The notes under the pieces: model-generated | Databases searched by the model: none | What the model was told of the DNA's origin: nothing | The model's input: only the letters and a program-made list of their open reading frames with translations | DNA from: Lentisphaerota bacterium | Lineage (GTDB): Bacteria; Verrucomicrobiota; Lentisphaeria; Victivallales; Victivallaceae | Reading direction: 5' to 3' | Length of the DNA: 64,000 nt | NCBI GenBank assembly: GCA_015061805.1 | Contig: SUVV01000003.1 | Coordinates: 62,001-126,000 of the forward strand | Part shown: positions 32,150 through 39,620 of the stretch, piece by piece | Position numbering within the stretch: the first letter of the stretch is position 1 | Layout: every line of letters begins with the position of its first letter | Translations under genes and position numbers: made by a program

Positions 32150-32755
32150 GTTGCCGCTCCGATGTCGCGGCAAGAGTGTAAATTTATCATCTCCTTACTC
32201 ACGCAAAGCGGTGTATGTTTGCTCCCGTTGGTCGCAAACAGGAGATATAAAATCATCATATCCTTACTCGCGTAAGCGAGCGCTTCATGTTTGCCAAAGG
32301 CAAACGCTTCACATTGCGAAGCAATGCTTCATGCAGGATTTATCCTGCGCTTCACGTTGGTTTGCTGCGCAAACCAACACAAAAGCCGCTCCGTTGTCGC
32401 GGCAAGAGTGTAAATTTATCATATCCTTACTCGCGTAAGCGAGCGCTTCATGTTTGCCAAAGGCAAACGCTTCACATTGCGAAGCAATGCTTCATGCAGG
32501 ATTTATCCTGCGCTTCACGTTGGTTTGCTGCGCAAACCAACACAAATGCGGTGTATGTTTGCTCCCGTTGGTCGCAAACAGGAGATATAAAATCATCATA
32601 TCCTTACTCGCGTAAGCGAGCGCTTCATGTTTGCCAAAGGCAAACGCTTCACATTGCGAAGCAATGCTTCATGCAGGATTTATCCTGCGCTTCACGTTGG
32701 TTTGCTGCGCAAACCAACACAAAAGTCGCGGCACAACTCGCAGAGCGGCGGATGG
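32123..32755 (-). repeat. R1 multi-hairpin array, copy A (~633 bp)
   Basis: Bounded by CCATCC (32123-32128) and GGATGG (32750-32755). In the minus orientation it consists of small palindromes separated by the heptamer RTGAAGC: GTTGGTTTGC/GCAAACCAAC, GCAGGATAAATCCTGC, ATTGCTTCGCAAT, GTTTGCC/GGCAAAC and CTCGC/GCGAG. Three full five-hairpin units are present. Between them are a TTGCCGC/GCGGCAA hairpin tail and, twice, an extra module with TGTTTGC/GCAAACA arms (near 32216-32240 and 32556-32580). ORFs through it are repetitive and not coding. Confidence 0.85.
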
Positions 32756-37177: not shown

Positions 37178-38359
37178 TCACTTGCCCTGATCGATAAAAA
37201 TACCGCGCCGCTTGAAAGTCGGCACATCCAGATCTTCGCCGTTGAAGAAATCCGGGGTGCTGTTTTCCATGATACCCTTGTCATCGGTATCAAGATCAAG
37301 GGTCTGCTGGACAAATGCGGCATCGGACGGATTCAAATTTCTTCTGGCGGCGGCACTGCGGCGCACCGGGGTTTCAGCAACGGCCGGAGTTTCCGGTTTT
37401 TTATCGGTGTAACGCACGGTCAGAGCGGTGATCTGCACCATACCGTCCCATGCGGCGGCGCTTCCGGCACCGATCAGGATCTTGCGGTCGACCGACTTAT
37501 CCAGTTGACTGCAGGCAAGATCAAGTACACTTTTGGCAGATCCCAGAGAGAGTTGCGTGCCGCCGATAACAGTAAAAATCACCGCATCTGCGCGCTGAAG
37601 TTCAGCCGGGCCTCCGAGCAGCGGAGAAAGCATCATTTTTTCGACCGCCGCTTCGAGCGATTCGCCCTCCGCAGTCGACACCACACCGACGCCCAGCGAA
37701 CAGAGTGCATTGGGCTTCAGCAATGCCGAGAAAGTGGCAACATCCGCGCTGAAAATATTTCCGGCAAGCAGAATCGATGAAAGCGCCACTGCCGTCCGTG
37801 CCATTTCAACATCAGCAAGTTCCAGCGCCTGCGCCAACGGAGTTTCCGGAGCCAGCGTGGAAAACAGCAGATCATTGGGCAGCGCGATCAGACAATCCGC
37901 CAACGGCAGAAGATCCGAACAGATCCGGTCATCCGCCTGCTTGCGTCTGCCGTAACCTTCCATGGCAAACGGCAGAGAAAGCATCAGCATCGTGGTAATG
38001 TGCAGATGACGCGCCACGCCCAGAATAACCGGCAGTCCGCCGCTGCACATACCGCCGCCCAGACCGCCGATGATCAACAGGATCTCAGTACCTTCAAGTA
38101 TCTTCGCCAGACGGGGGCGTTCGACTGCGGCGGCACTGCGTCCGAGGATATCGTTGCCGCCGCAACCGCGGCCGGAACGCAGATTCATACCGGCGATGAT
38201 ACAGTTTTCGGCAGGCAGACCGGATTCTTTCAAACTTTCAGTATCGGAATCCATCGCCAGCAAACGCAATTTTTCCGCGCCGGGAGTTCCGGCGATCCGG
38301 CGGATGATCCGGCATCCGGCGCCGCCAAGCGCCAGCAGAGTGACTTTGTGTCCGTCCAT
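37178..38359 (-). CDS. ftsZ: Highly divergent FtsZ
   Basis: 393 residues directly behind ftsA. FtsZ landmarks: ALGGAGCRIIRRI (T1), AMDSDTESL (T2, normally NTD), CLIALPNDLL with PLAQALELAD, SADVATF (T7 region) and LGVGVVSTAEG with SPLLGG. The tubulin signature GGGTGTG is GGGMCSG at 101-107, and the T7 motif NxDFxxD reads NIFSADV (201-207), so one catalytic Asp is Phe203 and only Asp206 remains. The C-terminal peptide EDLDVPTFKRRG keeps the FtsA/ZipA-binding consensus D(I/V)PxFxRR. It presumably forms the Z-ring with altered GTPase behaviour, or is a non-hydrolysing paralogue. Confidence 0.85.
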   Translation of the reverse strand: MDGHKVTLLALGGAGCRIIRRIAGTPGAEKLRLLAMDSDTESLKESGLPAENCIIAGMNLRSGRGCGGNDILGRSAAAVERPRLAKILEGTEILLIIGGLGGGMCSGGLPVILGVARHLHITTMLMLSLPFAMEGYGRRKQADDRICSDLLPLADCLIALPNDLLFSTLAPETPLAQALELADVEMARTAVALSSILLAGNIFSADVATFSALLKPNALCSLGVGVVSTAEGESLEAAVEKMMLSPLLGGPAELQRADAVIFTVIGGTQLSLGSAKSVLDLACSQLDKSVDRKILIGAGSAAAWDGMVQITALTVRYTDKKPETPAVAETPVRRSAAARRNLNPSDAAFVQQTLDLDTDDKGIMENSTPDFFNGEDLDVPTFKRRGIFIDQGK

Positions 38360-38361
38360 AG

Positions 38362-39579
38362 TTACGCCCTCCCCCCGAATTTGATCCGGTTGAACAATTT
38401 ACTCAACATCGTATTACCGGGAAGTTCGTCCACAAAATCCGGCGCGATCTGCAATGCTCCCCAGATCACGCTGAAACGGGGATCAGCCAGTGATTTGTAT
38501 TTGGGATTGAGCGGCATCACCGTACGGCAGGGAATGTCAAATACAGAAGTGAAAATATCTTTCACCGGAGCATACAACGCCCCGCCGCCGGTCAGCAATC
38601 CTCCGGCGCCAAGCGTATTGAGATTGTGCTTGTCGGAAATTTTGCGGCGGATCATGTCAATAAGTTCGCGCAGCCGGAGTTCAACAATGGTCTCACAGCT
38701 GCTGACCGGAATTTTGCGGGTATAACGGCCGCGCGGGATTTCGATGAATTCCTGATGATCGCGGATGGCACTTGCCAGAATTCCGGCTGAAAAGAAGTTG
38801 CGGCAGGTGTCGATCGGCAGATCCAAACCGATAGCAAGATCGTTTGCCGCATGTTCCATGCCGACCCGGATGACACCGGATTCCCGGACACCGCCATCGA
38901 CATTGAGCAAATATTCCGTAGTTCCGGCACCGATATCCAGCAGAATAAAGCCGTTTTCCTGTTCATTATTATCAACGGCGCCGCTGACTCCGGCAAGGAT
39001 GGAAAAGACCGGTTCAATGCTCACATCTTCAAAGCCGGCCTCATGAAGCGCCTGAACAAACGGGTTCAGACGGCGGCTGTTGGCGCTGACCACATGGACA
39101 TCCGCTTCCAGATATTTTCCGGATTGTCCGCAGGGTTCGATGACCCGCCGCTGGTCAAGAGTGAAACTGGACGGACAGAGGTTGATGATCTCTCTGCCGT
39201 TGGTCAATGCCAGATTGCGGGCGGCTTCGGTGACGGTACGTTTTTCATTTTCGGTCACGATACCGTTGGGTGTATTGACGGTGATCCGGGCGGTTTCCTG
39301 ATGGGAAGTGATACCGCCGCCGGTGACTGCAACGGTGATCACCCGACAGTCAGAAAGATTGCAATCCGCCTTTTTTTCGGCGATATCGAAAGCCTTGCGC
39401 AAGACCTCTACCGCGCGTTTCATGTCGGATATCTCCCCTTTCACCACAGCGTTTCCGCTGGCGACTGCTCCGGAACCGATCAGTTCGACCTTGTTTTTAG
39501 CGGTCAGTTCACCGATAAGGACGCTGATCTTGGAGGTTCCGAACTCCACTGCACATACAATATTTTGATTACTGAACAT
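38362..39579 (-). CDS. ftsA: Cell division protein FtsA
   Basis: Actin-like protein that tethers FtsZ to the membrane. 405 residues starting MFSNQNIVCAVEFGTSKISV; a GTG four codons upstream is a less likely start. Phosphate 1 loop: VEFGTSKISVLIGE. SHS2/1C domain: RRVIEPCGQSGKYLEADVHV. Phosphate 2: LLDIGAGTTEYLL. Adenosine region: LTGGGALYAPV. The C-terminus MLSKLFNRIKFGG is an amphipathic helix suited to membrane binding. ftsZ starts 2 nt after its stop codon. Confidence 0.93.
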   Translation of the reverse strand: MFSNQNIVCAVEFGTSKISVLIGELTAKNKVELIGSGAVASGNAVVKGEISDMKRAVEVLRKAFDIAEKKADCNLSDCRVITVAVTGGGITSHQETARITVNTPNGIVTENEKRTVTEAARNLALTNGREIINLCPSSFTLDQRRVIEPCGQSGKYLEADVHVVSANSRRLNPFVQALHEAGFEDVSIEPVFSILAGVSGAVDNNEQENGFILLDIGAGTTEYLLNVDGGVRESGVIRVGMEHAANDLAIGLDLPIDTCRNFFSAGILASAIRDHQEFIEIPRGRYTRKIPVSSCETIVELRLRELIDMIRRKISDKHNLNTLGAGGLLTGGGALYAPVKDIFTSVFDIPCRTVMPLNPKYKSLADPRFSVIWGALQIAPDFVDELPGNTMLSKLFNRIKFGGRA

Positions 39580-39620
39580 AATTCCGGACACGATATTTAT
39601 TTATATACATATTCAAGGGA

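Follow-up and report, generated by a model that had tools for sequence, protein, structure and literature searches.

A divergent FtsZ of a Lentisphaerota bacterium lacks the canonical tubulin signature and the second catalytic aspartate of the T7 loop but keeps a predicted FtsA-binding tail

Treadmilling and cell division are widely held to require GTP hydrolysis by FtsZ. In one description of the catalytic site (E. coli numbering is used here unless stated otherwise), the T7-loop aspartate equivalent to D209 swings and thereby positions water, the equivalents of D212 and G71 form the surroundings of this water, that of R142 contributes, and that of N207 contacts K+; the same text refers to both T7 aspartates as ‘all conserved across species’, and reports that the S. 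aureus FtsZ variants N208L, D210N and D213N do not assemble (PMC8936486). Both aspartates are present in the E. coli, B. subtilis and Staphylococcus FtsZ sequences that we compared. When over-expressed alongside the wild-type protein, E. coli FtsZ(D212A) reportedly forms filaments and has a much slower GTP hydrolysis (PMC4383033).

Verrucomicrobial FtsZ proteins have been described as being among the most divergent groups (PMC9871819), and accelerated evolution of verrucomicrobial ftsZ has been noted (PMC2474590; PMC9871819). The gene is reported to be essential in Verrucomicrobium spinosum, and for Lentisphaerota the dcw genes are listed as highly conserved in a 2025 survey (PMC12283558). The V. 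spinosum protein, 673 aa long, keeps GGGTGSG (PMC1845146). For FtsZl1 (FtsZ-like 1), it is reported that counterparts of T6-H7 were not confidently identified and that the gene neighbourhoods are mostly of the vWA type (PMC2875224). The fast evolution of verrucomicrobial FtsZ is thus already known. For the pattern at the catalytic site and the truncated, ‘half’ FtsZ that we describe below for this group, our literature search, conducted mostly without subscription papers, returned no earlier description.

The window analysed here is a stretch of 64,000 nucleotides from a draft Lentisphaerota assembly (GCA_015061805.1; 2,285,354 bases, 34 contigs, 91.46% complete), and its family, we infer, is the one that holds Victivallis. 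The window encodes a 393 aa FtsZ (Table 1), and the gene adjoins ftsA on the same strand, with 2 bases separating the ftsZ ORF from the ftsA stop codon. The pair is flanked by genes for a 2-hydroxyacid dehydrogenase and an M3 peptidase, and therefore lies outside any dcw cluster here; a FtsW/RodA gene is located on the same contig, approximately 63 kb off, and FtsW/RodA and MreB are both encoded in the assembly, with scores far above the cut-offs. Elsewhere in the window, between two genes, a 163-base unit is repeated in three tandem copies (32221–32729, 87% matches), and a 54-base piece also recurs at 32153 and 32385.

The window FtsZ scores 66.7 bits with PF00091, over the cut-off of 33, which assigns it to the tubulin/FtsZ superfamily, and stays under the curated cut-offs of both the domain model PF12327 (23.9 bits, E 5e-5, cut-off 27) and the equivalog model TIGR00065 (126.7 bits, cut-off 295.2). 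Its identity to E. coli FtsZ is 24%. The AlphaFold model, built on an alignment (A4) of the window FtsZ with 65 relatives, has a mean pLDDT of 86.4, and all 50 PDB matches listed for it are FtsZ. The gene adjoins ftsA and is present once per genome, as is characteristic of FtsZ orthologues, and we have filed it as a divergent orthologue by descent rather than as a curated equivalog.

Table 1. The ftsAZ locus and sites of the window FtsZ (window coordinates; motifs compared with E. coli FtsZ).
Feature	Position	Strand	Basis
ftsZ, sole FtsZ found in the assembly	37178..38359	-	ORF, PF00091, AlphaFold model
ftsA, 409 aa, directly upstream of ftsZ	38362..39591	-	TIGR01174, 212 bits (cut-off 175.85)
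T1 phosphate loop, GGAGCR vs GGGGGN	38309..38326	-	alignment
T2, DSD vs NTD; Asp equivalent to D45 kept	38243..38251	-	alignment
T4 tubulin signature, GGGMCSG vs GGGTGTG	38039..38059	-	alignment
T7 synergy loop, SADVAT vs NVDFAD (N207S, D212T, D209 kept)	37733..37750	-	pairwise, profile and 152-row alignments
T7, codon of the kept D209 equivalent	37742-37744	-	
T7, codon of D212T	37733-37735	-	
C-terminal peptide EDLDVPTFKRRG, predicted FtsA-binding	37202..37237	-	tail pattern; binding inferred

In the nucleotide pocket, the readings of T4 (GGGMCSG, residues 101–107) and T2 (DSD) given in the initial annotation are correct, and T4 departs from the canonical signature [SAG]GGTG[SAT]G. Equivalents of D45, G69, G71, G105, G107 and G111 are kept, as are those of P134, E138, R142, N165 and D209 and the Asp at position 186, which we take to be the guanine-contact place of helix H7. 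For the T7 loop, the claim that one catalytic Asp has been lost was right as to the loss but not as to the residue: the Asp that is missing is the second (D212), not the first (D209). The earlier register, which put Phe at the first catalytic Asp, is three residues off. N201-I-F-S204-A-D206-V-A-T209 aligns with G-L-M-N207-V-D209-F-A-D212 of E. coli, such that D206 corresponds to D209 and T209 replaces D212, and the loop (SADVAT) does not have the canonical NxDxxD with both catalytic Asp. Three alignments agree on this correspondence – a MAFFT alignment of 152 rows, phmmer against B. subtilis and Staphylococcus PDB chains, and hhalign between A4 and E. coli FtsZ – and Phe203 is therefore not located at a catalytic Asp. 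The earlier register also came out of an initial MAFFT alignment with fewer rows (the order and E. coli), and is contradicted by the larger, pairwise and profile alignments; it requires a gap, whereas relatives such as L015 (STDFADL versus NVDFADV) require none, and the T7 loops of L015, L006 and L005 (STDFADL, SSDFADL and SADFADL, respectively) make the register plain. In the AlphaFold model helix H8 begins at residue 207, directly after D206, which fits D206 being the residue that caps H8, as D209 presumably does in solved FtsZ structures. With the T7 residue corrected, the broader statement that both halves of the composite GTPase are altered while the FtsA-binding tail is kept stands.

The window ftsZ is under purifying selection: as compared to three relatives at 73–78% identity (L257–L259), omega is 0.13–0.17 for ftsZ and 0.17–0.22 for ftsA. 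Among 106 rows from the order (less than 95% identical), P134 and E138 are found in all 106, D45 in all 105 that have a letter at this position, G71 in 103 of 105, N165 in 100, D209 in 86, D212 in 48 and N207 in 15; judged by these columns, the nucleotide pocket is constrained and the T7 loop much less so. At the sequence level the tail of the window FtsZ, EDLDVPTFKRRG, has the form of an FtsA-binding peptide. The tail pattern is present in 144 of the 152 rows (E. coli included), and a slightly wider pattern in 76 of the 78 named rows. An ftsA-like ORF is located on the same strand in 77 of 80 named loci: in 67 of these the open FtsZ frame starts at a point that ranges from 441 bases ahead of the ftsA-like ORF’s end to 112 bases past it, and in 10 it extends further back across it; the stretches fetched for L279, L303 and L333 are without an ftsA-like ORF. 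Around the tail, a longer C-terminal motif is conserved clade-wide (37181–37309 in the window, consensus EQ..LPL...SKGIME.T.PV...GEDLDIPTFQRR.I.ID.GK), and suggests that a further partner binds ahead of the FtsA peptide.

Substitutions at the active site are widespread among the relatives. In the genus (30 rows, window included), N43D, G21A and G23C are universal, G109 is changed in 25 rows and kept in five, D212 is absent in 24 and kept in six, D209 is kept in 25 and T108 in 10; sorted by T7 class, 24 rows have D209 only, five D212 only and one both. D212 is absent in all 20 genus rows that lack T108 and in four of the 10 that have it, a joint loss that may be explained by shared ancestry. 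Three relatives at 73–77% identity have Asn in place of D212, and the T4 changes are partly common to relatives (GGGLCTG, GGGMGTG, GGGMCTG). In the rest of the family (20 rows), both Asp are found in 10 rows, D209 only in five, D212 only in four and neither in one; in the rest of the order (31 rows), the corresponding numbers are 12 with both, 14 with D209 only, two with D209 and Glu at 212, and three with neither. The rest of the class (32 rows) has D209 only in 22, both in one, D212 only in one, neither in four and a gap in four, and the rest of the phylum (38 rows) has both in five, D212 only in 13, Glu at 212 only in three, D209 only in 17 and neither in none. A named set of 78 rows, which overlaps these row sets, comprises 42 rows with D209 only, 14 with D212 only, 17 with both, four with D209 and Glu at 212 and one with neither; it takes in the isolate Victivallis vadensis DSM 14823 (L281; T4 GGGTASG, N207A and D212N, with D209 kept) as well as the complete genome of strain zth2 (L326). 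Throughout the Verrucomicrobiota sampled, one T7 Asp is often absent, and both rarely.

Are the two losses linked? Over 147 rows (E. coli included; L142, L143, L144, L114 and L060 were dropped beforehand), 82 have D209 only, 26 have Asp or Glu at 212 only, 31 have both and eight have neither. On one quick LG+G4 tree, from which the T7 columns were left out, 209 and 212 each require a minimum of 18 changes, and comparison of dependent with independent evolution of the two sites under a lightly penalised likelihood yields an LR of 13.7 (4 df, chi-square p 0.008), with a loss rate at 212 of 0.004 once 209 is gone versus 0.93 with both present. Against the eight rows with neither Asp, the 73 simulations (out of 2000) whose single-site losses were similar gave a mean of 20.4, and no run among them was as low as eight; the mean over all 2000 is 54.6, with eight or fewer in 1.1%. 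In Fisher tests, which account for ancestry through clustering only, 70% clusters have neither Asp in 8/119 versus 16.7 expected for all rows (p 0.0003), 0/26 versus 4.6 for the phylum outside the class (p 0.0002) and 4/67 versus 6.7 for the order (p 0.15), while for 50% clusters these values are 7/61 versus 11.1 (p 0.03), 0/17 versus 2.6 (p 0.009) and 3/25 versus 2.9 (p 1). There is thus moderate support, at the level of sequence, for a tendency to retain one acidic T7 residue, although this one-Asp rule is weaker after clustering and within the order.

Elsewhere in class Lentisphaeria, FtsZ is shortened. PF00091 gave a match in 104 of the 118 genomes sampled from the class. When a profile of the class (A1, with 40 rows) was applied to 34 genomes that lacked a good FtsZ match, 25 of them yielded a hit of some kind. 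In one family (f11, 29 genomes), 16 genomes encode a half-FtsZ, that is, an N-terminal domain joined directly to the tail, in which the profile’s H7 end, T7 and C-terminal domain are absent (G067, G080, G084, G090, G091, G092, G102, G103, G105, G107, G115, G117, G123, G125, G133 and G140; loci L204–L214, L216, L221 and L142–L144). In 15 of these 16 genomes an ftsA-like ORF immediately precedes the gene on the same strand, the exception being the G105 fragment, which is cut by a contig end; in L143, from a single-contig genome, GGGTGTG is still present. Full-length FtsZ is found in nine f11 genomes (G062, G077, G085, G088, G093, G110, G113, G124 and G142), the match in G089 is mostly limited to the last quarter of the profile, and the class profile found no FtsZ in G095, G127 and G134 of this family or in G131 of family f19. 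PF12327 proved a weak test for a separate C-terminal domain, having matched three of 24 genomes and missed the full-length G142 too, and we therefore base our description of half-FtsZ on the ORFs and the class profile. Five f11 genomes (L198–L202) keep the C-terminal domain and tail with no recognisable T4. In three genomes of genus g40 (L217, L219 and L220; 94–96% complete), the profile aligns only from position 136, after T4, except for a 3–5 bit piece at profile positions 10–50; the only FtsZ relative found in these genomes shows no recognisable T1–T4 and lies away from ftsA. The degenerate matches L200, L201 and L217 have one stop inside the matched stretch, and were read as open frames only.

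The class also holds a second tubulin family (L055–L059, L147–L185), approximately 370 aa long and with a mean column identity of 56%. Its T4 is GGGTG[NS]G in 44 of 44 loci, the two Asp of its T7-like GHIDxEDF are invariant in the 31 rows of alignment A5, and its C-terminus, LKRIGKL, is conserved. The family is present in 57 of the 118 class genomes (53 of the 60 outside the window’s order and four inside), including 15 of the 16 half-FtsZ genomes (not G105); it was found neither in the window’s assembly nor in the 36 further genomes sampled from that organism’s family. Neighbouring genes encode a Ser/Thr kinase (L162, L169) or a TPR protein (L147, L153), and scanning of the neighbours of L055 and L057 returned a mannosyltransferase and a formate-THF ligase.

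The reading that we prefer, with a probability of about 0.6, is that the window FtsZ is a working cytokinetic Z-ring protein that binds nucleotide and acts as a slow, one-Asp GTPase. It would descend from an ordinary ftsZ and pair with FtsA; the FtsZ fold is probably kept and, judging by the pocket residues and the predicted fold, GTP is most likely bound. The protein would polymerise, with the conserved tail tying the polymer to the membrane via FtsA. The composite GTPase would run on a single T7 Asp, D206 (E. coli D209), facing a neighbouring pocket in which R138, G67 and D39 (E. coli R142, G71 and D45) are kept, and would do so without the second Asp, the K+-contacting Asn and the T4 Thr; given these absences, GTP turnover is expected to be slow. 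The filaments would be long-lived, weakly treadmilling and mainly a divisome scaffold, and the protein would represent one point in a phylum-wide stepwise relaxation of the catalytic site. In favour of this reading are the sole, ftsA-linked copy, the purifying selection, the conserved pocket residues, the one-Asp pattern, the predicted fold, the essentiality of ftsZ in V. spinosum and the presence of FtsW/RodA and MreB. Slow or no GTP hydrolysis, as proposed in the initial annotation, is plausible. The main threat to the slow-GTPase reading comes from S. aureus FtsZ, in which N208L and D213N are non-assembling: the window protein is changed at both positions (Ser and Thr, respectively) and could have lost assembly. 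Also counting against our reading are the scores below the TIGR00065 and PF12327 cut-offs, the weakening of the one-Asp rule after clustering and within the order, and the existence of rows with neither Asp.

If hydrolysis has ceased altogether, the protein would be a static Z scaffold that binds GTP or GDP and assembles, leaving FtsW/FtsI wall synthesis alone to drive constriction. This is unlikely, though it deserves to be taken seriously: D212, N207 and T108 are all lost, over-expressed E. coli D212A is reported in cellular filaments beside wild-type FtsZ (PMC4383033), and eight of the 147 rows do without either T7 Asp. However, the other 139 have an acidic side chain at position 209, at 212 or at both. 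The genus keeps R142 in 28 of its 30 rows, and the position is Arg or Lys in all 20 rows from the rest of the family and in 29 of the 31 from the rest of the order. Both patterns look as though some turnover were under selection. Quite improbable, to our minds, is a non-polymerising adaptor of FtsA in which the tail does the work and the GTPase fold is a leftover. While family f11 does keep the tail where T4 (five genomes) or T7 and the C-terminal domain (16 of 29) are lost, the window’s order conserves the nucleotide pocket and the C-terminal domain, and the model is that of a complete FtsZ.

The suggestion, also made initially, of a second FtsZ that regulates a canonical one is very hard to sustain. 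The window ftsZ, which is the ftsA-linked copy, is the only PF00091 match in the 2.29 Mb assembly, and, on the strength of the PF00091 and class-profile genome searches, we rejected a canonical second FtsZ. Among 60 genomes searched (the window’s included), 55 have a PF00091 match, 50 of them one and five two; the additional copy in each of these five is from another tubulin family, not found in the window’s assembly. The sampled family genomes hold at most one FtsZ each, and those with a listed completeness of 99% (G064, G068, G071 and G074) have one PF00091 match apiece. Within the order, neither PF00091 nor the class profile found FtsZ in the drafts G020, G023, G024, G034 and G116 (76–92% complete), and FtsZ of G028 is split across two contigs. 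Nothing favours a regulatory copy except that the assembly is 91.5% complete, so that, from this assembly alone, a copy could be missing. Least credible of all is a pseudogene or a sequencing or assembly error. While the assembly is a draft in 34 contigs, no sign of the error that the initial annotation had allowed for was found: the three relatives and the V. vadensis isolate likewise have Asn for D212, the T4 change is partly shared, N43D, G21A and G23C run through the whole genus and D212 is missing from 24 of its 30 rows, and omega is far under 1.

The order has a cultured member, V. vadensis, and a single FtsZ that often lacks a catalytic Asp, which makes the Z-ring’s need for hydrolysis directly testable. 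Among the relatives, the graded FtsZ series supplies naturally occurring intermediates for studying how the PVC superphylum lost FtsZ, and altered FtsZ may reveal the way in which bacteria arrive at a life without a functional one. We also put forward, as a speculation that we doubt more than we believe, that FtsZ has been dismantled stepwise in Lentisphaeria while in use – a T7 Asp, the T4 signature and then, in one family, T7 and the C-terminal domain, down to the N-terminal domain and tail – and that the second, highly conserved tubulin, with intact T4 and T7, may have taken over GTP-driven polymer dynamics there; the window FtsZ would then be an early, one-Asp stage on a path of the sort that could have led to FtsZ loss in Planctomycetota and Chlamydiota.

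Compared with canonical FtsZ (E. coli, B. subtilis and S. aureus), the window protein has the same fold, ftsA link and FtsA-binding tail and the equivalents of D45, G71, P134, E138, R142, N165 and T7 D209, and differs by N43D, T108M, G109C, T110S, N207S and D212T. It shares with E. coli D212A the loss of the second T7 Asp; however, D212A is a single engineered change, whereas the loss in the window FtsZ is natural, common to relatives and accompanied by T4 changes. V. spinosum and other Verrucomicrobiota are of the same phylum lineage, with at least one T7 Asp absent in 33 of the 38 rows outside the class (three with Glu at 212); unlike V. spinosum FtsZ, the window protein lacks the Thr and the Gly of T4, has a length of 393 aa and comes from a class in which another family has further-shortened FtsZ. 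Finally, FtsZl1 is of the tubulin superfamily too, and its lack of confidently identified T6-H7 counterparts recalls the f11 half-FtsZ, but it is a separate family with mostly vWA-type neighbourhoods, whereas the half-FtsZ adjoins ftsA.
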